Part shown: positions 13,939-27,313 of the stretch, one piece after another
Layout: each line of letters opens with the position of its first letter
How positions within the stretch are numbered: position 1 is the stretch's first letter
Source of the DNA: an uncultured Flaviramulus sp.
GTDB taxonomy: Bacteria; Bacteroidota; Bacteroidia; Flavobacteriales; Flavobacteriaceae
Assembly (NCBI GenBank): GCA_947501105.1
Contig: CANMUP010000004.1
Location: 248,001 to 312,000, forward strand
Length of the DNA: 64,000 nt
Direction of reading: 5' to 3'
Notes under the pieces: generated by a model
Databases searched by the model: none
What the model was told of the DNA's origin: nothing
What the model saw: the letters and a program-made list of their open reading frames with translations, nothing else
Made by a program: the position numbers and the translations under genes

Positions 13939-14553
13939 ATGCACGTTGCAATTGCAGGAAATATTGGCGCAGGAAAAACAACGCTTACAAAATTACTAGC
14001 GAAACATTATAAATGGGAAGCTCAACTTGAAGATGTTGTAGACAATCCATATTTAGATGATTTTTATAATCAAATGGAACGCTGGAGTTTTAACTTGCAA
14101 GTATATTTTTTAAATAGTAGGTTTCGTCAAGTAGCTCAAATTCGCGAAAGCGGAAAAGACATTATTCAAGATAGAACCATTTATGAAGATGCTCATATTT
14201 TTGCACCCAATTTGCATGCTATGGGTTTAATGACCAACCGAGATTTCGAAAACTACTCATCGCTTTTCAATCTTATGGAATCTTTTGTACAAGGTCCAGA
14301 TTTACTTATTTATTTACGCAGTTCAATCTCTAATTTAGTGGAACAAATTCATAAACGTGGTCGTGATTACGAAAACTCAATAAGCATTGATTATTTAAGC
14401 AGGTTAAACGAACGCTACGAAGCTTGGATTTCTAAATACGATAAAGGCAATTTACTAATTATCGATGTAGATAATTTAGATTTTGTATCAAACCCTGAAG
14501 ATTTGGGTGGTATTATCAATAAAGTAGAAGCCGAAATTAACGGTCTTTTTTAG
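13939..14553 (+). CDS. Deoxynucleoside kinase
   Basis: A 204-residue P-loop kinase of the dNK/dGK type that phosphorylates salvaged deoxynucleosides. The Walker A motif GNIGAGKTT is at residues 7-15. Family motifs follow: WxxQLED(V)VDNPYL, the RWSFNLQVYFL helix, the catalytic DRTIYEDAHIF and the lid RGRDYEN. Which base it prefers cannot be told by eye. It fits the nucleoside transporter and thymidylate synthase found elsewhere in the window. Confidence 0.88.
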   Translation: MHVAIAGNIGAGKTTLTKLLAKHYKWEAQLEDVVDNPYLDDFYNQMERWSFNLQVYFLNSRFRQVAQIRESGKDIIQDRTIYEDAHIFAPNLHAMGLMTNRDFENYSSLFNLMESFVQGPDLLIYLRSSISNLVEQIHKRGRDYENSISIDYLSRLNERYEAWISKYDKGNLLIIDVDNLDFVSNPEDLGGIINKVEAEINGLF

Positions 14554-14645
14554 GGCGTTTTTACCAAAAAAGGTAAACCGCGCTTTCCGTTATATCTTTT
14601 TCTCGTGCCTCAAAAAAGGATGCCACATCAATCGCTAACGCAAAA
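14554..14645. repeat. Extragenic repeat element of a type common in flavobacteria
   Basis: Directly after the kinase stop comes a hairpin TTTACC-AAAAAA-GGTAAA (14561-14576 region), then CGCGCTTTCCGTTATATC, a TTTTT/AAAAAA-flanked centre and GGATGCCACATCAATCGCTAACGC. I recall very similar sequences scattered between genes in many Flavobacteriaceae; copy number in this genome cannot be checked here. No ORF is present. Confidence 0.5.
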
Positions 14646-14873
14646 CAACTTCAATTCTAGTTTGTAATTAACACAAATATTTCTCGTCAAAAAAGTTGTA
14701 ACTTTAGTAATTAAACTTTTATTTTTTGTTTAATAAAAGGTTTTACGCATTCAAGAATTACTATTTAATTATTGTTAAAAAAGTTACTTGTCGTATTAAG
14801 TAACTCTCAAGAAATTAATATACTTCTTAAGATGTTTAATTAGCTATTTTTACTTTTTAACTAACTATACTAT
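14646..14873. other. AT-rich intergenic region before the Crp-family gene
   Basis: With the repeat element to its left this makes a 320-base gene-free stretch. It holds the inverted repeat listed at 14782-14805 and presumably the promoter of the redox cluster; I see no other gene or RNA. Confidence 0.6.
14782..14805. promoter_or_regulatory. Inverted repeat AGTTACTT-N8-AAGTAACT, possible operator
   Basis: Perfect 8-bp arms separated by GTCGTATT, 69 bases before the start of a Crp-family regulator gene. The two-fold symmetry suits a dimeric regulator, possibly the Crp protein itself, although it is not the canonical Crp/Fnr sequence (TTGAT/TGTGA type). Confidence 0.5.
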
Positions 14874-15539
14874 TTGAAAGCAATCACTAAATACTGGTTT
14901 TTAGAGGGGTTCAACCTTTTTAAAAAACTCGGAATGCTCAACATGATGAAAATTTGTGAGATTCTTGAAATGGATAATATTGAAAAAGGGAAACCCATTG
15001 AGCTTACCAACAAACATAAAAATAGTGTTTTCTTTCTAAAAAGAGGTAGTGTAAAAATTGTTAATGCTGCTCATAATTCCGTAAAATATGTTGTAAAACG
15101 AGGTCATATATTTGGAGAACTCGCTCTTTATGATAAGGAAGCCGCTAAAGAAGAAATTGCCTATGCTTTAGAAGATTGTGTAATCTGTTATATCGAGTCT
15201 GAAAGAATGGAAGAGTTAATGGAGAAACATAAATCACTTAAAAATGGTGTTCTTAAAATTTATGGGTTACGTATAAAAAAGTTAGAACGAAGACTTCATG
15301 ATTTGCTTTATAAAGATAGCGCAACTAGGGTACAAGAATTTATTACAGATTATGTAAATGAATTTGGAGAAACTAATGAAAAAGGGAAATTAGTAGCAAA
15401 AAATCTTTTATCACACAAAGAAATAGCAAATCTCACCAATACATCGAGACAAACGGTAAGTAATGTATTAAGTACATTACGAAAAAAAGGAATCATTAAT
15501 TATAATAAGGAAACCATATTAGTTAATAGCATTCAATAA
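14874..15539 (+). CDS. Crp/Fnr-family transcriptional regulator (TTG start)
   Basis: A 221-residue regulator. The N-terminal cyclic-nucleotide-binding-like barrel (about 10-120) has the FFLKRGSVKI and GHIFGELALYD signatures, followed by a long dimer helix and a C-terminal HTH_Crp with HKEIANLTNTSRQTVSNVLSTL. The TTG at 14874 is used because an in-frame stop lies just upstream and the family N-terminus (KYWFLEGFNLFKKL) begins right after it. It lacks the four-cysteine Fe-S pattern of Fnr, so the signal is unknown. It lies 32 bases before the Rieske-glutamate-synthase gene and is the likely regulator of that operon. Confidence 0.85.
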   Translation: MKAITKYWFLEGFNLFKKLGMLNMMKICEILEMDNIEKGKPIELTNKHKNSVFFLKRGSVKIVNAAHNSVKYVVKRGHIFGELALYDKEAAKEEIAYALEDCVICYIESERMEELMEKHKSLKNGVLKIYGLRIKKLERRLHDLLYKDSATRVQEFITDYVNEFGETNEKGKLVAKNLLSHKEIANLTNTSRQTVSNVLSTLRKKGIINYNKETILVNSIQ

Positions 15540-15571
15540 TTTCAAAACAAAACCAAAAAAAACCACTAAGC

Positions 15572-17182
15572 ATGAAGAAACCAGTAGTTATTGCAAAAGT
15601 AAGCGAGTTAATCAATAAACAACCAGAACACGCACTCGTAAACGGGTTAGATTTGGTAATAGTGAAGTTTGATGAAGATATTTCTGTGCTCTATGGAAGA
15701 TGCTTACACAGAGGTGCGCTAATGTCAGATGGTCATGTAGATGGGCACAATCTTATTTGTGGCGTTCACGGTTGGGATTATCGAGTAGATTCTGGCGTTT
15801 CAGAATACAATAATAAAGAAGTGCTTCATAAATTCTCTACCAAGATTGAAGGTGATGATTTAATGGTAGATGTCTTTGAAATTGATGCTTATTTAGTCAA
15901 CAGTCCACAACCATTTAATCGCGATGAATATTTAGGTGCTTATGCAGATACGCATCCAGAGGACACAGAACCTTATACTGGTTATATAAAAGAACTCGCC
16001 CATAACGGATTAAAAAATTTGGGCCATCACGGTTTTTCAGCATCAATGGGTGTTGATAGGAATACCTTGCCAAAATGGAATGATATTCAGTTTCTACCAG
16101 CACAATTAGCATCAAGACCTTTATTAGACCACGAAGCCGTGGCAACAAAAGTTGTGATTGGCCCAAATGCAAAAAAGCCATTAGAATTAGATATGCCTTT
16201 GTTTGTGAGCGATATGAGTTTCGGAGCTTTATCTCGCGAAGCAAAAATAGCCTTATCTAAAGGAGCGCAATTGGCAGGGACAGGAATTTGCTCTGGTGAA
16301 GGCGGCATGCTACCAGAAGAACAAGAGAATAATTCAAGATATTTTTACGAATTAGCTTCCGCACAATTTGGTTTTACATGGGATAAATTGGATAACGTAC
16401 AAGCCTTTCATTTTAAAGGCGGACAAGGTGCGAAAACAGGAACTGGCGGACATTTGCCAGGAAATAAAGTAAGTAAAGAAATTGCCGAAGTGAGAGGATT
16501 AAAAGAAGGCGAAACAGCTATTTCTCCAGCAGCAAATCCAAATTTTCATAGTATACAAGATTTTAAAGACTTTGCTGATAAAGTACGTGAGCGTACAGGA
16601 GGAATTCCAATTGGTTTTAAAATTGCTGCCAGCCATATTGAAAAAGACATTCAGTTTGCACTCGATGTAGGTGTAGATTATATCATTCTTGATGGTCGTG
16701 GTGGAGGAACAGGTTCTGCACCAACCATTTTACGCGACCATATAAATGTGCCAACAATTCCTGCATTAGCAAGAGCTAGAAAATATATGGACAAAGTTGG
16801 CGCTACAGATGTAACTCTAGTAATTACTGGAGGTTTAAGAGTTGCCGAAGATTTTGCCAAAGCCATGATGCTAGGCGCAGATGCAATTGCAGTTTCAAAT
16901 TCTGCATTGCAAGCTATAGGTTGTTTAGGAATGCGTGCTTGTGGAAGCAATAATTGTCCAGTCGGAATTGCAACTCAAAAAGAGTCATTACGTAGTCGTT
17001 TGATAATTGATTCTTCAGCAAAACAATTGCAAAACTTTTTTGAAGCAACCAACGATTTAATTAGAGTGGTAGCTCGTTCATGTGGGCATGATGATATAAC
17101 CAAATTTAATCACGATGACCTTTCAACTTTCGATAGGGATATCCACAAATTAACTGGAATTAATTATGCAGGAATACAGTAA
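15572..17182 (+). CDS. Rieske domain fused to FMN-binding glutamate-synthase-like oxidoreductase
   Basis: A 536-residue fusion. Residues 1-105 form a Rieske [2Fe-2S] domain with ligands C44-x-H46 and C63-xx-H66. Residues from about 140 match the FMN domain of glutamate synthase (GltB-type: SDMSFGALS, ICSGEGGM, KGGQGAKTGTGGHLPG, DGRGGGTGSAP, ITGGLR). C451-x5-C457-x4-C462 (with CPVGIATQ) is the 3Fe-4S signature of GltB. There is no glutaminase domain, so it is not a complete glutamate synthase. The arrangement predicts electron flow Rieske to 3Fe-4S to FMN or the reverse; the substrate is unknown. It is the first enzyme gene of a run with two further Rieske fusions. Confidence 0.88.
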   Translation: MKKPVVIAKVSELINKQPEHALVNGLDLVIVKFDEDISVLYGRCLHRGALMSDGHVDGHNLICGVHGWDYRVDSGVSEYNNKEVLHKFSTKIEGDDLMVDVFEIDAYLVNSPQPFNRDEYLGAYADTHPEDTEPYTGYIKELAHNGLKNLGHHGFSASMGVDRNTLPKWNDIQFLPAQLASRPLLDHEAVATKVVIGPNAKKPLELDMPLFVSDMSFGALSREAKIALSKGAQLAGTGICSGEGGMLPEEQENNSRYFYELASAQFGFTWDKLDNVQAFHFKGGQGAKTGTGGHLPGNKVSKEIAEVRGLKEGETAISPAANPNFHSIQDFKDFADKVRERTGGIPIGFKIAASHIEKDIQFALDVGVDYIILDGRGGGTGSAPTILRDHINVPTIPALARARKYMDKVGATDVTLVITGGLRVAEDFAKAMMLGADAIAVSNSALQAIGCLGMRACGSNNCPVGIATQKESLRSRLIIDSSAKQLQNFFEATNDLIRVVARSCGHDDITKFNHDDLSTFDRDIHKLTGINYAGIQ

Positions 17183-17186
17183 TATT

Positions 17187-17573
17187 ATGGAAAACTGGTA
17201 TTTACCAATAACAATAGTTCCAGGTATTGGCTTGCTAATTCTGTCGACTTCTAATCTTATGGTCACTTTAACCAATGAGTTAAGTGGATTTATAAAAGAA
17301 CAGTCAAAAGACGAGTCTATAATTTCACGAAAACTGATTCAATTAAAAACATTAAATCGTGCCATGGTATTTTTTTACATATCAGTGGCATGTTTAGCAA
17401 TTTCTGGATTAATTGGTGGTTTGCAATTAAGTTCAATAAATAATACTGCCACTTATATAAGTATAATAGGCATTGTAATCATGCTTTTAGGTCTATTTTC
17501 TTTAATAAAATACTCCTATAGAGCAGTAAGTATTCGACAAGACCAGTTTAAAGCAAAATTCAACAAAAACTAA
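17187..17573 (+). CDS. Small membrane protein, DUF2721-like
   Basis: A 128-residue protein with three predicted membrane helices (about 5-24, 60-82 and 90-110) and a basic C-terminus. The pattern (N-terminal helix, amphipathic part, LKTLNRAMVFFYISVACL) resembles DUF2721 proteins, of unknown function. The start at 17187 (MENWYL) is preferred to an in-frame ATG at 17166, which overlaps the upstream gene by 17 bases; an AGGAA lies upstream. It ends six bases before the Rieske-ThDP gene. It may anchor or partner the soluble redox enzymes on either side. Confidence 0.65.
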   Translation: MENWYLPITIVPGIGLLILSTSNLMVTLTNELSGFIKEQSKDESIISRKLIQLKTLNRAMVFFYISVACLAISGLIGGLQLSSINNTATYISIIGIVIMLLGLFSLIKYSYRAVSIRQDQFKAKFNKN

Positions 17574-17579
17574 AAGAAT

Positions 17580-19529
17580 ATGGCAACAACCAAAAAATGG
17601 TACAGTGTACTAAAAGATAAAAAAACATTGCCAGAAGGCCGTGTTCAAACCGTTACTGCTGGTCATCAAGGTATTTGTTTAACACATTACAATGGCAAAT
17701 TTTCTGCACTCGATAATAAATGTCCGCATCAAGGAGGTCCTTTAGGTGAAGGCTCTATTGAAAACGGAATGTTACGTTGTCCTTGGCATGGTTGGGATTT
17801 TGACCCATGTACAGGAACACCTCCTGGTGGATTTGATGATGGCGTAAAGACCTTTGAAGTGAAAGAAGACGGCAATGAGATTTTAATAGCCATTGAAGAA
17901 GAGGAAACACATCAAGATACGATTTCTGATGTCATGATAGAAACTATGGTTAATTGGGGAGTAAATACTGGTTTTGGAATGGTTGGTCATTCAAACTTAG
18001 GAGTTGCTAATGCCATGATGCGTCAAGAAGAACAAGGGAAGTTTCAGTTTTTTGGTATTCGTCATGAAGGAGCTGCAGCTTTTGCAGCTTCAGCTTATGG
18101 AAAATTAACCGGGAAACCAGCTGTTTGTTTTGGTATTGCTGGTCCAGGCTCTACCAATATGTATACAGGAATGTGGGATGCTAAAGTAGACCGCTCACCT
18201 ATGTTAGCCCTTTCAGGTCAAGTAAACACACAAGTTATGGGAACTGGTGCCTTTCAAGAAGTAGATTTAGTTGGCGCCTTTCAAACAGTAGCGAACTTCA
18301 ATCATAGTGTACAGCAAAACTCAAAACATAGCGAGTTAATGAGTTTGGCTATAAAAAGCGCCTTATTAAATAGAGACGTATCACATATAACATTTCCAGA
18401 TGAAGTGGCTTTTATGCCAAAACCTGCAGGAGAAGAAGCGCAAACTCCAGAAGGAAGAATTACACCTATGAACATATTACCTCCGCCACAAATGGTTGCA
18501 AAGGCTGTTTCAATGATTTCTGAATCCAAAATGCCTGCTATTATTGTTGGTCACGGAGCGCGTTTTCATATGAAAGCTATCACGGCGTTTGCAGAAAAAT
18601 TAAACTGTCCTGTAATTACAACGTTTAAGGCAAAAGGCCAAATTTCAGATCATCATGATTTAGGTTGTGGAGTATTAGGAAGAAGTGGTACTCCAATCGC
18701 TTCCTGGTTTATGAACGAAAGTGATTTGCTAATTGTATTTGGAGCTTCATTCTCTAATCATACAGGTATTACACCTAAAAAGCCAATCATTCAAGTAGAT
18801 TATGATCCGAATGCATTAAGTAAGTTTCATAAAGTTGATGCAGCACTTTGGGGAGAGATATCTGAAACCTTATCCATTATAGAAGCACAAATAGAAGGCA
18901 ATCTTAATACCGTAGACAGACGTCCAGAAATTGCAAAACGATGGGCGATTTGGCAAGAAGAAAAAGCAAGTCGATTAAAAGATGAAAGTGACATTGGTTT
19001 AAGCTCCATTGCCGTTTTTGAAGCCATGAATAAAGTGGTCCCTGATAACGCAGTAATTGCTGTAGATGTTGGAAACAACACCTACTCTTTCGGACGTTAT
19101 TTTGAACCTAAAAATCAATCTGTTTTAATGTCAGGTTATTTGGGCTCTATAGGGTTTTCATTGCCAGCAGCCATGGGTGCATGGGCTGCACAAGGAAAAG
19201 ACAGACCAATTTGGTCCGTTTCTGGTGATGGTGGTTTTGGACAGTATTTAGGTGAAATGATGACCTTGGTAAAATACAATATGAACATTAAGCACGTATT
19301 ACTTAACAATTCAGAATTAGGAAAAATATCAAAAGAACAAAAGGCTGCTGAATTAGACGTTTGGAAAACATCTTTACACAATGTAAGTTTTGCAAAGTAT
19401 GCCGAAAACTGTGGTGCATTAGGTATTAGAGTAACCAAAAAAGAAGACTTAATACCAGCACTAGAAAAACTAAAAGCACACAATGGTCCAGCCTTATTAG
19501 AAATAATAACAGATGCAACATTAATATAG
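17580..19529 (+). CDS. Rieske domain fused to ThDP-dependent pyruvate-oxidase-like enzyme
   Basis: A 649-residue fusion. Residues 1-108 are a Rieske domain (C48-x-H50, C67-xx-H70, with CPHQGGPLGEG and CPWHGW). Residues from about 112 are a three-domain thiamine-diphosphate enzyme: catalytic E163 in RHEGAAAFAA, central NAD/FAD-like domain, and the ThDP/Mg site GDGGFGQY with NN 26-28 residues on. Blocks such as LLNRDVSHITFPDEVAF look most like PoxB-type pyruvate:quinone oxidoreductase and less like acetolactate synthase, but the PoxB C-terminal membrane-binding tail is absent. Pyruvate or another 2-oxo acid may be decarboxylated with electrons passed to the attached Rieske cluster; this is inference. 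Confidence 0.85.
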   Translation: MATTKKWYSVLKDKKTLPEGRVQTVTAGHQGICLTHYNGKFSALDNKCPHQGGPLGEGSIENGMLRCPWHGWDFDPCTGTPPGGFDDGVKTFEVKEDGNEILIAIEEEETHQDTISDVMIETMVNWGVNTGFGMVGHSNLGVANAMMRQEEQGKFQFFGIRHEGAAAFAASAYGKLTGKPAVCFGIAGPGSTNMYTGMWDAKVDRSPMLALSGQVNTQVMGTGAFQEVDLVGAFQTVANFNHSVQQNSKHSELMSLAIKSALLNRDVSHITFPDEVAFMPKPAGEEAQTPEGRITPMNILPPPQMVAKAVSMISESKMPAIIVGHGARFHMKAITAFAEKLNCPVITTFKAKGQISDHHDLGCGVLGRSGTPIASWFMNESDLLIVFGASFSNHTGITPKKPIIQVDYDPNALSKFHKVDAALWGEISETLSIIEAQIEGNLNTVDRRPEIAKRWAIWQEEKASRLKDESDIGLSSIAVFEAMNKVVPDNAVIAVDVGNNTYSFGRYFEPKNQSVLMSGYLGSIGFSLPAAMGAWAAQGKDRPIWSVSGDGGFGQYLGEMMTLVKYNMNIKHVLLNNSELGKISKEQKAAELDVWKTSLHNVSFAKYAENCGALGIRVTKKEDLIPALEKLKAHNGPALLEIITDATLI

Positions 19530-19560
19530 ATTAAAGAACAATAAACAATTTATATCTGGA

Positions 19561-20214
19561 ATGAATTCGATGAGCGTTTTATTAGAAAAATACAAATACT
19601 TAATTGCTCTTTTAAGTGTATTCAATTTTCTATTAACCCCTATTCATATTGCAGTAAGTGGATTTAATCCAGCTTATGTTATCGTTATAAATTATACGTT
19701 GGTTATTTTAAGTAGTTCATTAATTGCTTCCATGAAAAGAGCCAAACTCATAACATACATACTTGGTTTTTTAACACTTTTTGCCATTTGGCTAGAATTT
19801 TCTAACCATAATTCTGAATCAATCTTAATTTGCAGACTGGTATTTTCCTTTTTGTTATTTTCCTGCTTTTGTATTATACTTATTAGGCAACTATTAAAGA
19901 TAACGGAAATCAACCTCCAGTTTATTTTAGGGCCAATTTTAGGCTTCCTCTATTTAGGTGTTATAGGAGGTGTACTTTTTGAATTTATTCATTTTTTAGA
20001 TTCAAATTCATTTCAATTAATCAAGGGTTTTTCTGGCTATAGCTTTTATTATTTCAGTTTTATAAGTATTACATCTGTTGGCTATGGTGATATTACTCCA
20101 ATAACAGCTCCAGCGCAATCATTAACACTAGTTATGAATATTATAGGACAATTCTATTTAGTTATTGTTATTGGTGTATTTGTAGGTAAGTATATTAACG
20201 TAAAATCATCATAA
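19561..20214 (+). CDS. Six-helix potassium channel
   Basis: A 217-residue integral membrane protein with about six hydrophobic segments and the K+ selectivity filter TSVGYGD at 171-177, followed by the inner helix. The positions equivalent to S4 lack the regular arginines of voltage-gated channels, so voltage gating is unlikely. No cytosolic RCK domain is attached. Its stop is immediately followed by the ATG of the Na+/H+ antiporter, indicating one transcript. Confidence 0.85.
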   Translation: MNSMSVLLEKYKYLIALLSVFNFLLTPIHIAVSGFNPAYVIVINYTLVILSSSLIASMKRAKLITYILGFLTLFAIWLEFSNHNSESILICRLVFSFLLFSCFCIILIRQLLKITEINLQFILGPILGFLYLGVIGGVLFEFIHFLDSNSFQLIKGFSGYSFYYFSFISITSVGYGDITPITAPAQSLTLVMNIIGQFYLVIVIGVFVGKYINVKSS

Positions 20215-21456
20215 ATGTTCGAATCTTTTAGTATCGTATTTACTATTTCCGCGCTTTTTAATTTTATAAATTATAAATGGTTGAAATTACCAAGTACGAT
20301 AGGTCTGCTAATTTTGAGCTTAATTTTAATCATTCCAATAACATTAAGTGAAACTGTTTTTCCAGAATTTTATAAATTCTTTTGCGATATTATTGTTAAT
20401 GCCAATTTTAAATCACTTTTGCTTGATGGTATTTTGAGTTTTATGCTTTTTGCTGGGGCTTTACACGTTAATATTGGAGCGCTTGCAAAACAAAAAAAAT
20501 CAATTTTATTGTTTGCGACCATAAGCGTACTTATCTCTACTTTTATCGTTGGAGGATTGATTTTCTATACTGCAAAATTAATTGGCTTAGAATTGCCATT
20601 TATACATGCATTATTATTTGGATCGTTAATTTCTCCAACAGATCCAATTGCCGTTATGGCTATTCTTAAAAAAGCAAATATTGCTAAAAGCCTAGGCATT
20701 AAAATTGAAGGGGAGTCTTTGTTTAATGATGGTATTGGTGTTGTTGTGTTTTCAGGAATCTTACTATTAGCAACTGCAACTGGTGATTATAATCAAGCTG
20801 AAATCAGCAAAGAAATTGGAACCCTTTTCTTAGAAGAAGCTATTGGTGGTATTGTGTATGGATTAGTTATTGGTTTTATTGGTTTGCAATTCATTAAATC
20901 ATTAAAAGACAACCCACATTTGTCTGTTATGATAAGCTTAGCAATCGTTATGGGTGGCTATGCAGGCGCTTCTATGTTGCATGTTTCAGGTCCATTAGCG
21001 ATGGTCATAGCTGGTTTGTTTGTAGGTAATAAAATTAATATTAGTAATAACAAAAGTGATGTTCAAAAAGCTCTCAACGAATTTTGGGAAATTTTAGACG
21101 ATGTTTTTAATGGTATTTTATTTGTTCTTATTGGCCTTGCTATGCATTTATTAGAATTCAATAAAACATATCTTATTTTAGGTGTTATGGCCATTGTAAT
21201 TGTACTTTCTGCAAGATTGGTTTCAGTGTTTTTACCTTATTCATTATTGAAACACGAAGAAAAAAAGCCCATAAAAACGATTGCTATTTTAACTTGGGGA
21301 GGATTACGAGGTGGTATTTCAATAGCATTGGCTTTAAGTTTGTCTGATGAGCTATCAGGAGAGTTGATTTTATATATTACTTATGTTGTTGTGCTATTTT
21401 CGATTATTGTACAAGGCTTAAGTATTGGCAAGGTTGTAAAAAAGTTATATTCGTAA
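20215..21456 (+). CDS. CPA1-type sodium/proton antiporter
   Basis: A 413-residue protein with about 12 membrane helices. It carries the CPA1 ion-binding motifs: [12 protein letters not shown] around 142 and [10 protein letters not shown] around 168, plus the late [17 protein letters not shown] signature. It exchanges Na+ (or K+) for H+. It abuts the K+ channel with no gap, suggesting joint control of cytoplasmic K+/Na+/pH together with the redox enzymes. There is no long C-terminal regulatory domain. Confidence 0.92.
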
Positions 21457-21525
21457 AACAGAGTTAGTTTATAAGTAATAACTTTTATTGGTTGTTACCT
21501 TTTTATTTAGAAAATTCATTTAGTT

Positions 21526-21738
21526 ATGACATATATTATCAACATATTTTTAGGGGTTTTAGGAATCTATTTTTCTATAGGTTTACTATTCGGATTGTAC
21601 TTCGTCATTATTGGAGCTACAAAAATAGACCCTTTAATGCAGGGCACTAAAAAGAAAGTTCGCTTCTTATTACTTCCTGGAGTGATCGCTACTTGGCCCT
21701 TTTTAATCGTTAAATTATTCAAATCTAAATCTATTTAA
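21526..21738 (+). CDS. Small membrane protein of unknown function
   Basis: A 70-residue protein with two hydrophobic segments (about 3-30 and 47-62) separated by a basic loop (QGTKKKVR). I recognise no family. It is separated by one base from the next gene, and both precede the haem-b/Rieske protein, so it may be a small subunit of that complex. Confidence 0.6.
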   Translation: MTYIINIFLGVLGIYFSIGLLFGLYFVIIGATKIDPLMQGTKKKVRFLLLPGVIATWPFLIVKLFKSKSI

Positions 21739-21739
21739 T

Positions 21740-22141
21740 ATGACTTCTGGACAACGAAAAGCACATAAATATATTTGGCTATTACTCATTATCATTGTTC
21801 CTATATTAATCATCTTTTCTATTAAAGATTTAGATGCTTTTGCATCAAAAAACAACATATCTAATGAATTTAAAGTTTCAAAGGATGCTGTTTTAAAAGC
21901 TGCAGAAAACGAATTGATTAAAGTCTCATTAAGTTCAAATTCTATCGAAATCATTTTAAAATCAACATTAAAGAATGCTTCTTCAATAGTTTATGAATCA
22001 GATTCCGAAGGAAATAAAAAAGAAATCATAGGGCAATTAACAACCTCTGGAATTTACAATTTCAAAATTGAAAATCAACCAAAAGGTATTGTTTTATATG
22101 ATGAGTTAAAAGAAAACGTAATAACTAAATTGACATTTTAA
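21740..22141 (+). CDS. Membrane-anchored protein of unknown function
   Basis: A 133-residue protein with one N-terminal membrane helix (about 12-29) and a roughly 100-residue soluble domain, probably periplasmic by the positive-inside rule. No cysteine or histidine clusters are visible. It overlaps the downstream ferric-reductase-like gene by one base (TAATG), so the two are translationally coupled and likely form a complex. Confidence 0.65.
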   Translation: MTSGQRKAHKYIWLLLIIIVPILIIFSIKDLDAFASKNNISNEFKVSKDAVLKAAENELIKVSLSSNSIEIILKSTLKNASSIVYESDSEGNKKEIIGQLTTSGIYNFKIENQPKGIVLYDELKENVITKLTF

Positions 22142-23169
22142 TGGGCTTAGATTATCAATTAGTGCTTTGGAACAAACACAAGAAAACTTACGATAAAATT
22201 ATTGTATTAAGTATGTTGCTGTACATTGTTTTATTCGCAGTTATCACTATCGCTTTTAATTCTGAAACGAGTATTGAAACTCTTGTAATTAGAGCATTTG
22301 GTTCATTAGCTATTATTATGCTTCATATTATTTTAGCCATTGGCCCGTTAAGCAGATTAAATTCCAACTTTTTACCAATACTTTATAATCGAAGACATTT
22401 AGGAGTAAGTATGTTTATAGCAGCTTTGATTCATGGTGGTTTTTCTATGTTTCAATTTCATGCTTTAGGTGATGTAAACCCAGTCTATTCAGTGTTTACA
22501 TCAAATATGGATTATGGTTCGTTAACTAACTTCCCTTTTCAAGTTTTAGGGTTTTTAGCATTACTCATTTTATTTATAATGGCTTCTACGAGTCATGATT
22601 TTTTCTTAGCAAACTTATCTGCTAAAGTTTGGAAACGTTTACACATGATGGTTTATTTTGCTTACGCTTTAATTATTGCACATGTATTTCTAGGCGCTTT
22701 TCAGCAAGAAACCTCTCCATTCACAATAGGTATTATGATTATAGGTTTTTTAGTAGTTGCAAGCCTACATTTGATTACCGCATTTAAAGAACGTAAAACT
22801 GATAGAGTCAAAACTGAAGAAAAAGAAGGTTGGCTAACTGTGTGTAACATTTCAGAAATTCAAGAGGACAGAGCAAAAATATTCACCGTAGACAATGAGC
22901 GTGTTGCTATTTTTAAATACGACGGAAAATTATCTGCCATTCACAACGTCTGTAAACATCAAGGCGGACCTCTAGGAGAAGGAAAAATTATTGACGGTTG
23001 TGTTACTTGTCCTTGGCATGGCTATCAATATTTACCAAGCAATGGACAATCTCCTCCTCCATTTACAGAAAAAGTGACAACCTACGAATTGAAACTAGAC
23101 GAAGAAACCGTTTATATTAATCCGAAAGCTTTTGAAGAAGGCACAGAAGTTAAACCTTGTAAAATTTAG
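22141..23169 (+). CDS. Haem-b ferric-reductase-like membrane protein with C-terminal Rieske domain
   Basis: A 342-residue protein. Residues 20-215 hold about six membrane helices of the ferric-reductase-like transmembrane domain, with histidines suitable as haem ligands (H62, H86, H98, H168, H181). Residues about 228-325 form a Rieske domain (C271-x-H273, C290-xx-H293; CKHQGGPLGEG, CPWHGY). In classical FRE/NOX proteins the C-terminus is an FAD/NAD module; here it is replaced by a Rieske cluster. The Rieske motif is nearly the same as that of the ThDP fusion. Predicted role: passing electrons between a cytosolic Rieske cluster and haems across the membrane. Confidence 0.85.
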   Translation: MGLDYQLVLWNKHKKTYDKIIVLSMLLYIVLFAVITIAFNSETSIETLVIRAFGSLAIIMLHIILAIGPLSRLNSNFLPILYNRRHLGVSMFIAALIHGGFSMFQFHALGDVNPVYSVFTSNMDYGSLTNFPFQVLGFLALLILFIMASTSHDFFLANLSAKVWKRLHMMVYFAYALIIAHVFLGAFQQETSPFTIGIMIIGFLVVASLHLITAFKERKTDRVKTEEKEGWLTVCNISEIQEDRAKIFTVDNERVAIFKYDGKLSAIHNVCKHQGGPLGEGKIIDGCVTCPWHGYQYLPSNGQSPPPFTEKVTTYELKLDEETVYINPKAFEEGTEVKPCKI

Positions 23170-23172
23170 TCT

Positions 23173-23964
23173 ATGAAAAAGAATGATGAATTTTATGTGC
23201 CATATATTGACGGAAGTCTAGGTAGCAAAACAAAAAAAACACTTAAACGCTTTACTTTTATTGCAATTGTAGTAATTGTAATTGGCGCTTTAATATTCAG
23301 CTTTGCTCAAAAACCTTTTAAAAATAGCACATTCGAATTAACAAGTGCTACGAAAATTACAGGAACCTATCATGAAAATCCATATCCTATGCTTCGCGTA
23401 GAAGTTGCAGATAATACCTTTAAAAATATTTTACTTTTAGGCTTTGGAAAATCGAGTGCTAATCCCTTTTTAGAAAAACTTCACAGTGAAGTTAAAAATC
23501 TAAATGGTAAGACCTTAAACATTGAAGGCAATTTAATTTACTATAACGGGAAAACACTAATTCAAATTACGGATGACGAAAAGGTGACACTGAAAAACAA
23601 GAAAACTAGTTTGGCACTACAAAAAGAGCTCATTAGTAAAATGACATTGCAAGGCGAAATCATAGACCCAAAATGCTATTTTGGTGTTATGAAACCTGGT
23701 AAAGGGAAAATACATCGCAGTTGTGCAGTGCGTTGTATCTCTGGCGGTATTCCTCCTGTTTTAGCTACTACAGATAACAATAACATCTCTCAATATTATT
23801 TACTAACTGATCTAAAAGGTAATCCCATTAATAAAGATGTGCTTTCTTATATTGGAAAACCTTCAGAAATAACTGGCATTGTTGAAAAAATGGAAGATTG
23901 GTATATTATGAAAATTGATGCCGATGATATAAAAATTATCAGTGAAAACTCTTCAATTTATTAG
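23173..23964 (+). CDS. Membrane-anchored protein with conserved three-cysteine region
   Basis: A 263-residue protein with one membrane helix (about 27-45) and a C-terminal domain, probably periplasmic. A striking block at 163-196 has C168, C184 and C188 (DPKCYFGVMKPGKGK, then CAVRCISGGIPPV), a pattern suited to metal or cofactor binding or to disulfide chemistry. I believe this block is conserved in proteins of several phyla but know no assigned function. It lies three bases after the haem/Rieske gene and ends the operon; a terminator follows. It may accept electrons from the haem protein. Confidence 0.7.
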   Translation: MKKNDEFYVPYIDGSLGSKTKKTLKRFTFIAIVVIVIGALIFSFAQKPFKNSTFELTSATKITGTYHENPYPMLRVEVADNTFKNILLLGFGKSSANPFLEKLHSEVKNLNGKTLNIEGNLIYYNGKTLIQITDDEKVTLKNKKTSLALQKELISKMTLQGEIIDPKCYFGVMKPGKGKIHRSCAVRCISGGIPPVLATTDNNNISQYYLLTDLKGNPINKDVLSYIGKPSEITGIVEKMEDWYIMKIDADDIKIISENSSIY

Positions 23965-23968
23965 AATT

Positions 23969-23998
23969 AAAAAGCCACATCAAATGATGTGGCTTTTT
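23969..23998. terminator. Bidirectional intrinsic terminator
   Basis: AAAAAGCCACATCA, loop AA, TGATGTGGCTTTTT, between the convergent redox operon and hppA. A/T runs on both sides let it serve both strands. Confidence 0.9.
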
Positions 23999-24020
23999 GT
24001 TTTTAGTAGCTAGTTTTTAT

Positions 24021-26381
24021 TTAGCTATTCTCTTCTTTCTTCAAATTTGAAACGGCTTGCTTTACTTCAGTTTCAGTGCCTTCAAAGGTTTCATAATTAG
24101 TAGATTTTTCTCCGTTTTCGTTTACAACAGTAGTTACTACCGCTTTAAAAACGCCTTCTTCAACTTCATTCATTTCTACTTTAATTTCTTTAGAAATATT
24201 TTGAGCCACTAACTCTGTAGCTTCTTTTTCTTCAACATAAGCAGCAACACCTTCAGAAGTTAATGCAATACTAGGCGCGATAACTAATGCTACAACAGAC
24301 ATTAATTTTAATAAGATATTTAATGAAGGTCCAGATGTATCTTTAAAAGGATCTCCTACAGTATCACCAACAACAGCTGCTTTATGAGCATCTGTTCCTT
24401 TTTTCCCTTGTTCTTCAATAGTTTTCTTAGCATTATCCCAAGCACCACCAGCATTAGACTGGAAGATTGCCATAAGCACACCACAAGTAGTAACACCAGC
24501 AAGTAATCCTCCTAACATTTCTGCGCCACCTAAAAAGCCAACTGCTACAGGAACAGCAATTGCTAATAAACCTGGTAATACCATTTCTCTAATAGATGCT
24601 TTTGTAGAAATATCTATACATTTACTATAATCAGCAACACCGTCAGCTTCATCAAATATTTTTCTATCAGCTTCTGATGCTTTTGTCATATCAGAATCAT
24701 ACTTTCGCATAATTTCTAAAGCCGCTTTTAATTTTGGAATATCTCTAAATTGACGACGAACCTCTTCAATCATAGCCATAGCAGCTCTACCAACAGCATT
24801 CATTGATAAGGCTGAAAACACAAATGGCAACATACCTCCAACTAATAATCCAGCCATAATTTTAGGCTGAGATACATCAATTGCAGTTACGCCTGCCGTT
24901 TTCATAAAAGCAGCAAATAAAGCCAACGCAGTTAAAGCTGCCGAAGCAATTGCAAAACCTTTACCAACAGCTGCAGTTGTATTACCAACAGCATCTAATT
25001 TATCAGTACGTTCGCGAACCTCGCTTGGTAATTCAGCCATTTCAGCAATACCTCCTGCGTTATCACAGATTGGGCCGTAAGCATCAACTGCTAACTGAAT
25101 CCCTGTGTTTGCTAACATTCCTACAGCCGCAATAGCAATACCGTATAAACCTGCAAAATGATGCGATACCATAATAGCAGCAGCAATTAAAAGAATAGGG
25201 ACCATTGTTGACATCATGCCAACACCTAAACCAGCAATAATATTTGTAGCTGCCCCAGTTTCAGATTGTGCAACAATAGACATTACAGGTTTTTTACCTG
25301 TAGCTGTATAATATTCAGTTATTTTACCAACACCTAAGCCGGCAACTAAACCAGCAATTGTTGCCCAAAATACACCCATAGCTCCGAAAGGTAAACCTTC
25401 TACAGATTCAGGGATTAATGCATTAATAATAAAATAAGACGCTACAACCATTAATCCTGCCGAACCAAATTCGCCAATATTTAATGCTGTTTGTGGGTTT
25501 CCACCATCTTTTACTTTTACAAAAAAGGTTCCTAATATAGACATTATTATACCTACAGCACCAAGAACTAAAGGCAAGTATACCGCTCCTAAACCATCAA
25601 AATCAGGCGTTAAAATAAAAGCACCTAATACCATGGTTCCTATAATAGAACCTACATACGATTCGAATAAATCAGCTCCCATACCAGCAACATCTCCAAC
25701 GTTATCTCCAACATTATCTGCAATAGTAGCAGGGTTTAACGGATGATCTTCTGGAATACCAGCTTCAACTTTACCAACTAAATCTGCACCAACATCGGCA
25801 GCCTTTGTATAAATACCTCCACCAACACGTGCAAATAAAGCAATAGATGAAGCTCCTAATGAAAATCCTGAAAGCACATTTAATACCATTCCTAAATTTT
25901 CAGATCCAGGCCATAAGCCTTGATATACTATAAATAAACCACTTAATCCTAAAATACCTAAACCTACAACACCTAAACCCATTACAGCACCTCCAGCAAA
26001 AGCAACTTCTAAAGCTCTTCCTAATGATGTTCTTGCAGCTTCGGTAGTTCTAACATTTGCTTTGGTTGCAACTTTCATACCGATGAATCCTGCTAAGGCA
26101 GAACAAATGGCTCCTACAATAAATGATATAGCTACCATCCCATTAGAGCCCGCTTCCGAAGTACCCTTAAAATATAATAAGACAGCTACCGCTACCACAA
26201 AAATTGCTAAAACCTTGTATTCGGCTTTTAAAAATGCCATAGCTCCGTCTGCAATATTCTTAGCTATACGTGACATTTTTTCATTACCAATTTCTTGTTT
26301 TGAAACCCATCCGCTTTTCAGAAAAACAAAAATTAAAGCTACAACACCAAAAAGTGGTAAAAATTTTACTATTAATTCCAT
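24021..26381 (-). CDS. hppA: K+-dependent membrane-bound cation-translocating pyrophosphatase
   Basis: A 786-residue, roughly 16-helix pump that uses pyrophosphate hydrolysis to move H+ and/or Na+. The catalytic region has [19 protein letters not shown] and [31 protein letters not shown] at 466-475 has Ala at 470, where K+-independent enzymes have Lys (GNTTKA), so this is the K+-dependent class. Whether it pumps Na+, H+ or both cannot be decided by eye. The C-terminus carries an acidic extension of about 80 residues after the last helix. It neighbours a soluble pyrophosphatase and is convergent to a cluster with K+ and Na+ transporters. Confidence 0.95.
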
Positions 26382-26453
26382 ATTAGTTAGTTAATTTTAG
26401 TTAATGATTTTTTTTAACGGAGCCTAAAATAGGAAAATATAAGTGATAAAAAA

Positions 26454-26477
26454 AACCACCTTAAACTTAAGATGGCT
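26454..26477 (-). terminator. Intrinsic terminator of ppa
   Basis: On the minus strand AGCCATCTTAA, loop GT, TTAAGGTGGTT followed by a run of T. It separates ppa from hppA, so the two pyrophosphatase genes are probably separate transcripts. Confidence 0.75.
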
Positions 26478-26509
26478 CATTTTTAAATTAATATGTTTTT
26501 TAACTCTAT

Positions 26510-27037
26510 TTAGATAGTAAAAGTTCTTTTCTTCTTATGCTCGCTATTATCATAACGCTGTACACATTTATGGTAAATTTCTATAGCTTCTTTTGCATTT
26601 CCCCAACCACCAACATCAACTTTCTTTTTTTCTAAATCTTTATATACTTGGAAGAAATGCTCAATTTCTTTTATTCTATGAGGATTTAAATCAACAATAT
26701 CAGTTTTTTGGTTCCAAACTGGGTCAGAAACAGGAACACAAATAATTTTTTCATCCGGACCTTTCTCATCCGTCATATGGAAAACACCAATAGGTTTTAC
26801 TTCCATAACTACCATTGGATAAGTAGGTTCTGTACCCATTACCAATACATCTAATGGATCTTGATCTAATGCTAATGTTTCTGGAACAAAACCATAATCT
26901 CCTGGATACATCATTGATGAAAACAACATTCTATCAAAACGAATTTTATTCAATGTAAAATCGTATTCGTATTTATTTCTACTTCCTTTTGGTATCTCAA
27001 TTAACACGTCAAATGTTAAATCTTTTTTCTTAGTCAT
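26510..27037 (-). CDS. ppa: Soluble inorganic pyrophosphatase (family I)
   Basis: A 175-residue cytoplasmic enzyme that hydrolyses pyrophosphate to phosphate. Family I motifs are IEIPKGSRNKYEYD, MMYPGDYGFVPET and the metal-binding signature DQDPLDVLVMG. The start at 27037 (MTKKKDLTFD) is chosen because an in-frame ATG at 27094 lies upstream of a good promoter (27061-27091) and would add unrelated residues. The C-terminus is rich in Lys/Arg. Together with hppA it means that cytosolic PPi can either be burned or used for ion pumping. Confidence 0.95.
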   Translation of the reverse strand: MTKKKDLTFDVLIEIPKGSRNKYEYDFTLNKIRFDRMLFSSMMYPGDYGFVPETLALDQDPLDVLVMGTEPTYPMVVMEVKPIGVFHMTDEKGPDEKIICVPVSDPVWNQKTDIVDLNPHRIKEIEHFFQVYKDLEKKKVDVGGWGNAKEAIEIYHKCVQRYDNSEHKKKRTFTI

Positions 27038-27060
27038 ATCTTCAATTCTATTTTGGGGTG

Positions 27061-27091
27061 CAAATGTACAGAACACTTTAAGAGTAAGCAA
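27061..27091 (-). promoter_or_regulatory. Bacteroidota-type promoter of ppa
   Basis: On the minus strand TACATTTG (27068-27061) matches TAnnTTTG, and TTG (27091-27089) lies 20 bases upstream. The expected leader is about 20 bases, which supports the ppa start at 27037. Confidence 0.65.
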
Positions 27092-27313
27092 CAAAACAAG
27101 TTAGTTTTAAAGTTCTTTAGTTTGCTTTTACCATATATTAATTATTTCTTAACAGAATGCTTAAATTTCTTAGATTTAATAATCAATATCTACTCTATTT
27201 GTTCTATTTGTTTCAACTTATTAAAGCCAAAGACTTTAACTGTTCTGTAAGAAAATCTATTCGTTATATTTATTATATTGCGCTCGACTAACTCAAATAA
27301 ACTACAATAAATC

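Follow-up and report, generated by a model that had tools for sequence, protein, structure and literature searches.

A conserved four-gene redox core and its Rieske-bearing partners in a Flaviramulus operon, with a proposed route for electrons across the membrane

Why should one bacterial operon encode three proteins with fused Rieske domains, together with ion transporters and a membrane protein of the haem type? The question is raised by ten genes at positions 14874-23964 of a window (the whole stretch analysed, 64,000 nucleotides) from an uncultured Flaviramulus sp., which an original prediction, made from the letters alone, had joined into a single redox system. The answer reached here is that the redox module at this locus is real and conserved, with no description in the open-licence literature searched, and that its fixed unit is a four-gene core, encoding two small membrane proteins (of 70 and 133 amino acid residues, aa), FrdR and Cys3; the ten genes do not make up a single inseparable system. 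That the operon encodes a transmembrane electron-transfer system, in which electrons would pass from PoxR and GltR to FrdR and then to Cys3, with compensation by an antiporter and a channel, is a proposition for which we judge the chances to be about even. The features of the operon are as follows.

14874..15539, plus strand: Crp/Fnr-family regulator; the listed start is TTG, with ATG at 14934 a possible alternative; PF13545 and PF00027 score above cut-off
15572..17182, plus strand: GltR, an N-terminal Rieske domain plus a GltB-type flavin mononucleotide (FMN)/3Fe-4S domain; PF00355 and PF01645
17166..17573, plus strand: DUF2721-like small membrane protein; PF11026 with E 2e-4, below the curated cut-off
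17580..19529, plus strand: PoxR, an N-terminal Rieske domain plus a pyruvate-oxidase-like thiamine diphosphate (ThDP) enzyme; PF00355, PF02775, PF00205 and PF02776
19561..20214, plus strand: ion channel (Ion_trans_2), probably for K+; PF07885 above cut-off
20215..21456, plus strand: CPA1-like Na+/H+ antiporter; PF00999 with E 2e-60
21526..21738, plus strand: core protein 1, a 70-aa membrane protein; matches no Pfam or NCBIfam family
21740..22141, plus strand: core protein 2, a 133-aa membrane-anchored protein; no family over cut-off
22141..23169, plus strand: FrdR, a six-helix NOX/STEAP/ferric-reductase-like domain plus a C-terminal Rieske ferredoxin domain; Ferric_reduct and Rieske (Pfam) above cut-off
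23173..23964, plus strand: Cys3, 263 aa, one N-terminal helix and then two OB-like domains; no family over cut-off
23968..23999, plus strand: terminator-like hairpin of 14 pairs (5 G-C), then a T run; three bases past the last stop

The predicted row of ten co-directional genes with small gaps or overlaps was borne out, all open reading frames (ORFs) lying where they had been placed on the plus strand, with gaps, in order, of 32, -17, 6, 31, 0, 69, 1, -1 and 3 bases, and the domain content is as claimed, Pfam returning Crp, Rieske plus Glu_synthase, Rieske plus TPP enzyme, ion channel, Na+/H+ exchanger and Ferric_reduct plus Rieske. Hairpin-type sites number 10 in 14400-24200, compared with 5.7 expected in shuffles, that at 23968-23999 having the most pairs. 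Within the whole genome (G000; 4.19 Mb, 99.97% complete), PF00355 matches only three times, each time inside the operon and within a span of 7.5 kb, for which simple arithmetic on three random places gives a chance of ~1e-5. Since these three matches lie so close together, and since the arrangement recurs in other genomes, the grouping is not a matter of chance.

The structural model of FrdR resembles STEAP/NOX plus a Rieske ferredoxin. All five histidines put forward as candidate haem ligands (86, 98, 152, 168 and 181) are invariant in the 82 aligned FrdR sequences, the candidate ligand pairs H86/H98 and H168/H181 sitting in model helices 84-109 and 161-189, respectively. The four Rieske ligands (C-x-H ... 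C-x2-H), seen at the outset in each fusion of the window, are likewise kept in 82/82 FrdR, 57/57 PoxR and 46/48 GltR sequences, the exceptions being the distant L105 and L109. Having both the Ferric_reduct transmembrane domain and candidate haem-ligand His pairs in two helices, FrdR belongs to the FRD superfamily, and is neither a NOX nor an MsrQ by the features tested.

Cys3 is modelled by AF2, with a predicted local distance difference test score (pLDDT) of 90.7, as an OB-fold protein with one N-terminal anchor helix. The cysteines for which it was described as a three-cysteine anchored protein proved to be C168, C184 and C188, which, together with M173 and H181, are invariant in 80/80 sequences; the second OB-like domain has the motif D-x-K-C-x2-G-x-M-x-P-x5-H-x2-C-A-x2-C. 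A natural FrdR-Cys3 fusion of 630 aa occurs in a Ferruginibacter metagenome-assembled genome (MAG; L108:776-2668), and, as the Cys3 anchor there follows the FrdR Rieske domain, the latter and the Cys3 N terminus would lie on the same side of the membrane. The two small core proteins are also fused naturally, in L069 and L073. In the 70-aa protein G19, D35 and W57 are invariant in 72/72 rows, including one from Rhizobium, and in the 133-aa protein H9 and W13, near the N terminus, are invariant in 63/63 rows, including a 54-aa Rhizobium version.

The linkage of these genes was assessed by a scan of a species-genome collection with the FrdR alignment, which gave at least 502 confirmed relatives; the best 80 loci were kept, a sample weighted towards sequences closely related to that of the window, for the most part from Flavobacteriaceae, with one (L093) titled an Acidobacteria MAG. 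Of these, 60 are well-flanked, i.e. have >7.5 kb upstream and >3.5 kb downstream, the 20 short-flanked loci being left out of the well-flanked counts, which also omit GltR matches of <50% identity, those in L105 and L109, and pieces shorter than fixed minimum lengths (e.g. PoxR pieces in L052 and L089, an antiporter piece in L073, and Crp in L078 and L107). Two antiporter-like ORFs encoded on the opposite strand, in L042 and L043, cluster with the antiporter, do not match that of the window and were not counted. The original prediction tied its joint system to homologues being found together rather than apart, and together they usually are: Cys3 accompanies FrdR in 60/60 well-flanked loci (78 of all 80), the 70-aa protein in 58 (75), PoxR in 44 (54, two of them fragments), the 133-aa protein in 44, GltR in 36 (44, two only 32-33% identical) and the antiporter in 30 (37). 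The 133-aa count is that of BLAST, which finds the family in 53 of all 80 loci, and clustering finds it in 63/80, several of the 16 well-flanked loci missed by BLAST holding a clustered relative. All counted copies of Cys3 (78), PoxR (52), GltR (42) and the antiporter (36) in the 80 loci are on the FrdR strand, and the median gap is 1.5 bases between FrdR and Cys3, 1 between PoxR and the 70-aa gene, and 7 between antiporter and PoxR. Only L108, with the fusion, and L104, where the contig ends just past FrdR, have no Cys3 gene of its own. From L084 onwards 22 loci are well-flanked, of which 22 have Cys3, 20 the 70-aa protein, seven PoxR, seven GltR and five the antiporter.

Thus PoxR, GltR and the antiporter are frequent same-strand partners, while the DUF2721 protein (12 well-flanked loci; 17 of all), Crp (12; 14) and the K+ channel (7; 8) are occasional ones; three of the 12 Crp copies in well-flanked loci are distant, at <31% identity, and the DUF2721 gene is in several cases encoded 5 kb away on the opposite strand. 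On these counts the balance is in favour of a joint redox system, though not of one made up indivisibly of all ten genes, with these three genes only occasional and GltR and PoxR often found without FrdR; the constant partner is Cys3, which the prediction had not singled out. In a phylum survey of 296 Bacteroidota genomes (FrdR search threshold 1e-20, weaker relatives lying outside the tables), FrdR was found in nine besides that of the window (the G309 copy being split over contig ends, and a G146 match, covering only a Rieske region with stops, not being counted), and two-domain Cys3 in exactly the same nine. Rieske-GltR was found in 36 other genomes, with the GltB-like part only in eight more, and PoxR in seven. 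FrdR co-occurs with GltR in 8/9 (Fisher 2e-7) and with PoxR in 4/9 (1.4e-5), and PoxR with GltR in 6/7 (1.4e-5), where n = 295 and values are uncorrected for kinship.

Single-domain relatives of Cys3 occur in six of the 296 genomes, all without FrdR. Those in L175-L178 and L180 are small, probably secreted and consist of the Cys/His-motif OB-like domain only; no Pfam or NCBIfam family scored over cut-off. Judged by eye, the L175 member has regulator- and reductase-like genes nearby, and those in L176-L178 and L180 have neighbours of no evident common function.

Among 72,556 plasmids, FrdR (41% identity) and Cys3 adjoin on five from Rhizobium, two of which encode a 71-aa protein like the 70-aa one, then a 53- or 54-aa protein sharing an R-x2-H-x3-W motif with the 133-aa protein, and then FrdR/Cys3. 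PoxR (52-58% identity) is carried by five plasmids, four of them haloarchaeal and one from Mycobacteroides, and GltR, with its Rieske ligands kept, by three of the four haloarchaeal plasmids. In Halorarius, a Na+/H+ antiporter comes after PoxR, and then an ion channel on the other strand, with GltR 4 kb on; the PoxR-GltR distance is 1.4 kb in Salinirubellus, and in Halorubrum the two are 17 kb apart on the same plasmid. As a parallel to the operon this haloarchaeal grouping is suggestive only, because the transporters are not close orthologues of those in the window: the Halorarius channel was rejected as one (E 0.34) and the antiporter match is weak (26% identity, E 1e-30). The antiporter of M. 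abscessus was also tried, and is not similar to that of the window (E 6).

A tree of 62 FrdR sequences, quickly built and with 15/59 inner branches well supported, has the neighbourhood changing at least seven times for PoxR, at least 13 for GltR and at least 12 for the antiporter, so the core is stable while the partners around it are gained and lost. Such changes, the 33 different gene orders among the loci, and the 14/62 tree rows with none of the three nearby (including the Rhizobium row, set by hand) would also be expected if PoxR and GltR worked separately from the redox core, brought under shared regulation with it and exchanging no electrons with it. A congener (G002; L032) can be read in the same way: genes which we take, by their look, to be deoxynucleoside-kinase-like on one side and membrane-pyrophosphatase-like on the other flank the operon (window 13939-26381), and in G002 the same two neighbours enclose gltR alone, so that the rest of the operon was gained or lost there. 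However, the partners share an unusual trait, i.e. a fused Rieske domain, and these fusions account for every Rieske domain in four genomes (three in G000, three in G135, two in G195 and three in G231); further, PoxR and GltR are near each other in two haloarchaea. We regard separate functions as the least probable of the readings considered here.

Other genes lie near the operon or recur beside its relatives. On the minus strand at 24021-27094 of the window, the membrane-pyrophosphatase-like gene adjoins one that looks soluble-inorganic-pyrophosphatase-like. A subtilase-like gene stands directly before the 70-aa gene in six divergent loci (L094, L095, L096, L100, L104 and L106); that at L094:7603-9261, the only one scanned, matches Peptidase_S8, and its cluster is also present in L111 and L114. 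Eight Flavobacteriaceae-type PoxR loci have a flavodoxin/FMN-reductase-like protein in their flanks (e.g. L071:4811-5569, L152:7157-7873), that of L071 being 56% identical to one near PoxR on the Mycobacteroides plasmid. Short-chain dehydrogenases occur, on either strand, in the flanks of 11 divergent loci (e.g. L103:2486-3178, L146:7897-8616), and one directly precedes the core in Rhizobium. The c7 family of ~248 aa (L065:6676-7410), with no Pfam match, occurs on either strand in 37/80 FrdR loci; it gave no match in the genome of the window, though an empty result from such a search shows little.

In PoxR, the ThDP glutamate and the D-G of GDG are kept in 57/57 sequences, in agreement with the ThDP-enzyme motif first reported. 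Its best NCBIfam score, 387 bits for the pyruvate oxidase PRK08611, is below the cut-off of 742, as PoxR is below the cut-offs of all 25 families shown. The best PDB matches, 3eya and 3ey9, are E. coli pyruvate dehydrogenase [cytochrome], a quinone-linked enzyme. In the alignment, residue 644 of the 649 in PoxR pairs with 527 of the 572 in 3ey9; PoxR thus ends ~40 residues short of the end of E. coli PoxB and lacks most of the last 45 residues of the latter, in which the C-terminal tail binds lipid. The N-terminal Rieske domain of PoxR may therefore stand in for membrane contact as the electron exit; pyruvate would be oxidised at the ThDP/flavin adenine dinucleotide (FAD) site and electrons passed to the enzyme's own Rieske domain and then to that of FrdR.

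The quinone link of PoxB can also be read otherwise, with FrdR exchanging electrons with the quinone pool, PoxR and GltR feeding or drawing from the respiratory chain, and Cys3 acting as an assembly or haem/metal-delivery factor, a role that its predicted one-helix anchored OB layout, which may resemble that of the haem chaperone CcmE, would fit. Nevertheless, FrdR aligns with NOX and STEAP proteins, which carry electrons outwards, and Cys3, no less constant than FrdR and in one case joined to it in a single protein, is better suited to being a working partner than a chaperone. We hold a quinone-pool role to be unlikely, albeit one to be taken seriously.

GltR retains the GltB-type 3Fe-4S cysteines (C-x5-C-x4-C) in 48/48 sequences, as had been claimed for the window. 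GltB carries a glutaminase domain at its N terminus; no such family is among the Pfam matches of GltR, the N terminus of which is the Rieske domain. GltR scores 134 bits with the NCBIfam equivalog for the glutamate synthase large subunit (cut-off 1047), and over its residues 133-534 shares 64% identity with a Rieske-less protein encoded on a Vibrio plasmid. Because the genome carries separate GltB-type ORFs (one of 1507 aa and a GltB-like one of 528 aa without a Rieske match), GltR is probably not the housekeeping GltB enzyme. An amino acid such as glutamate might be oxidised at its FMN/3Fe-4S centre, with electrons leaving via its own Rieske domain for that of FrdR. The same features could serve inward flow, with an outside donor or a quinol reducing FrdR, and Rieske transfer supplying reductive amination by GltR (and some reductive reaction of PoxR) in a biosynthetic or redox-balancing device; GltB-type enzymes normally make glutamate with electrons from ferredoxin or GltD, and in GltR, which keeps the 3Fe-4S cysteines, the Rieske domain would replace ferredoxin. 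Inward flow seems distinctly improbable to us, given that PoxR is of the pyruvate-oxidase type, which releases electrons, that the genome already has its 1507-aa GltB and that the NOX/STEAP relatives of FrdR push electrons outwards.

For the electron-transfer reading, then, gene linkage, natural fusions, predicted folds and conserved ligands are what is observed, and from these we infer topology, haem and metal content, partner contacts, substrates, direction of flow and ion coupling. Rieske-to-Rieske transfer is the best reading since PoxR, GltR and FrdR represent three swaps of one kind in one operon; in FrdR, a cytosolic Rieske ferredoxin domain would stand in for the FAD/NADPH domain of NOX on a haem-b membrane protein. 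Flow is taken to be outward because of the NOX/STEAP fold of FrdR and because Cys3 is predicted to be an outer protein: FrdR would pass electrons over its haems to the Cys/Met/His site of anchored Cys3, a dedicated partner or terminal reductase outside, and the 70-aa and 133-aa proteins may be membrane subunits of the FrdR complex. Electron export would depolarise the membrane and leave protons inside, which could be why the Na+/H+ antiporter and sometimes the K+ channel, as compensating transporters, are made together with it. For phagocyte NOX, the need for charge movement to be balanced is described in PMC7961965 and PMC4401748, and by analogy the charge/pH role proposed for the antiporter and channel suggests a parallel with the proton channels that serve that enzyme. 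We tentatively go a step further, with somewhat less than even confidence, in proposing a 'Rieske-NOX', i.e. a new class of NOX-like exporter driven by metabolism via Rieske-plugged pyruvate- or amino-acid-oxidising enzymes, with a new Cys/Met/His (copper-site-like) OB-fold terminal protein on the extracytoplasmic side and compensation of charge and pH by ion transporters.

Several results weigh against an electron-transfer system of this kind. No promoter was identified for the operon, FrdR was found in 0/3 congeners, and 16/60 well-flanked FrdR loci have no PoxR within their flanks. In the phylum survey GltR is without FrdR in 28/36 genomes and PoxR in 3/7, and therefore their Rieske domains can serve other partners and coupling is not obligatory for them. 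Apart from the four genomes in which the fusions are the sole Rieske proteins, ten genomes with FrdR were examined, and all ten encode additional Rieske proteins. Independent pairs on the starred branches of the FrdR tree number two, too few to prove joint gain or loss of partners, and tblastn at E <= 1e-15 found no FrdR on haloarchaeal plasmids (plasmids only, chromosomes not searched).

If the electron-transfer reading is correct, NOX/STEAP-type proteins can be driven by Rieske-tailed metabolic enzymes rather than by NAD(P)H, and bacteria have a new way of getting rid of electrons beyond the cytoplasm or of serving external targets, together with a parallel to the charge compensation of phagocyte NADPH oxidase. 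It also proposes a function for three families matching no curated family (the 70-aa, 133-aa and Cys3 proteins), and offers a reason for the Rieske-GltB and Rieske-PoxB fusions, which are spread from Bacteroidota to haloarchaea.

No description of a Rieske domain with a pyruvate oxidase, a ferric-reductase-like transmembrane protein or a GltB-like protein was found in the open-licence literature searched; among the papers listed, those on Rieske proteins at large deal with different ones, which by itself shows little. Each component differs from its known relatives. GltR resembles GltB and short GltB-like relatives in its FMN domain and 3Fe-4S cysteines, but a Rieske domain occupies the position of the GltB glutaminase domain, and GltR is separate from the genome's own GltB. 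PoxR shares with PoxB/POX the three ThDP-enzyme domains, the ThDP glutamate, and the FQ(E) and GDG motifs, and differs in its N-terminal Rieske domain, the mostly missing C-terminal tail and a score below the NCBIfam equivalog cut-off. In FrdR the Rieske domain is fused to a membrane haem-type protein, which sets it apart from the Rieske ferredoxins of aromatic dioxygenases, and the operon has no oxygenase. The MsrPQ system of E. coli, for methionine sulfoxide repair, is described in a passage of PMC5676040 as a cytosolic donor, an FRD haem protein and a periplasmic partner, and the layout proposed here is the same, with an outer partner; among NCBIfam families it is MsrQ that the membrane part of FrdR matches best, yet at 46.2 bits against an equivalog cut-off of 130, no molybdenum enzyme (MsrP) is encoded in the operon (the genome's single PF00174 match being on contig C3), and the partner is instead an OB-fold protein. 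A search criterion for bacterial NOX given in the same passage of PMC5676040, two His-x12/14-His pairs, is one that H168-x12-H181 of FrdR fits and H86-x11-H98 fails. Finally, compared with NOX (NOX/DUOX, S. pneumoniae SpNOX) and STEAP, the C terminus of FrdR is a Rieske domain rather than FAD/NADPH-binding domains, and FrdR has a dedicated OB-fold partner.

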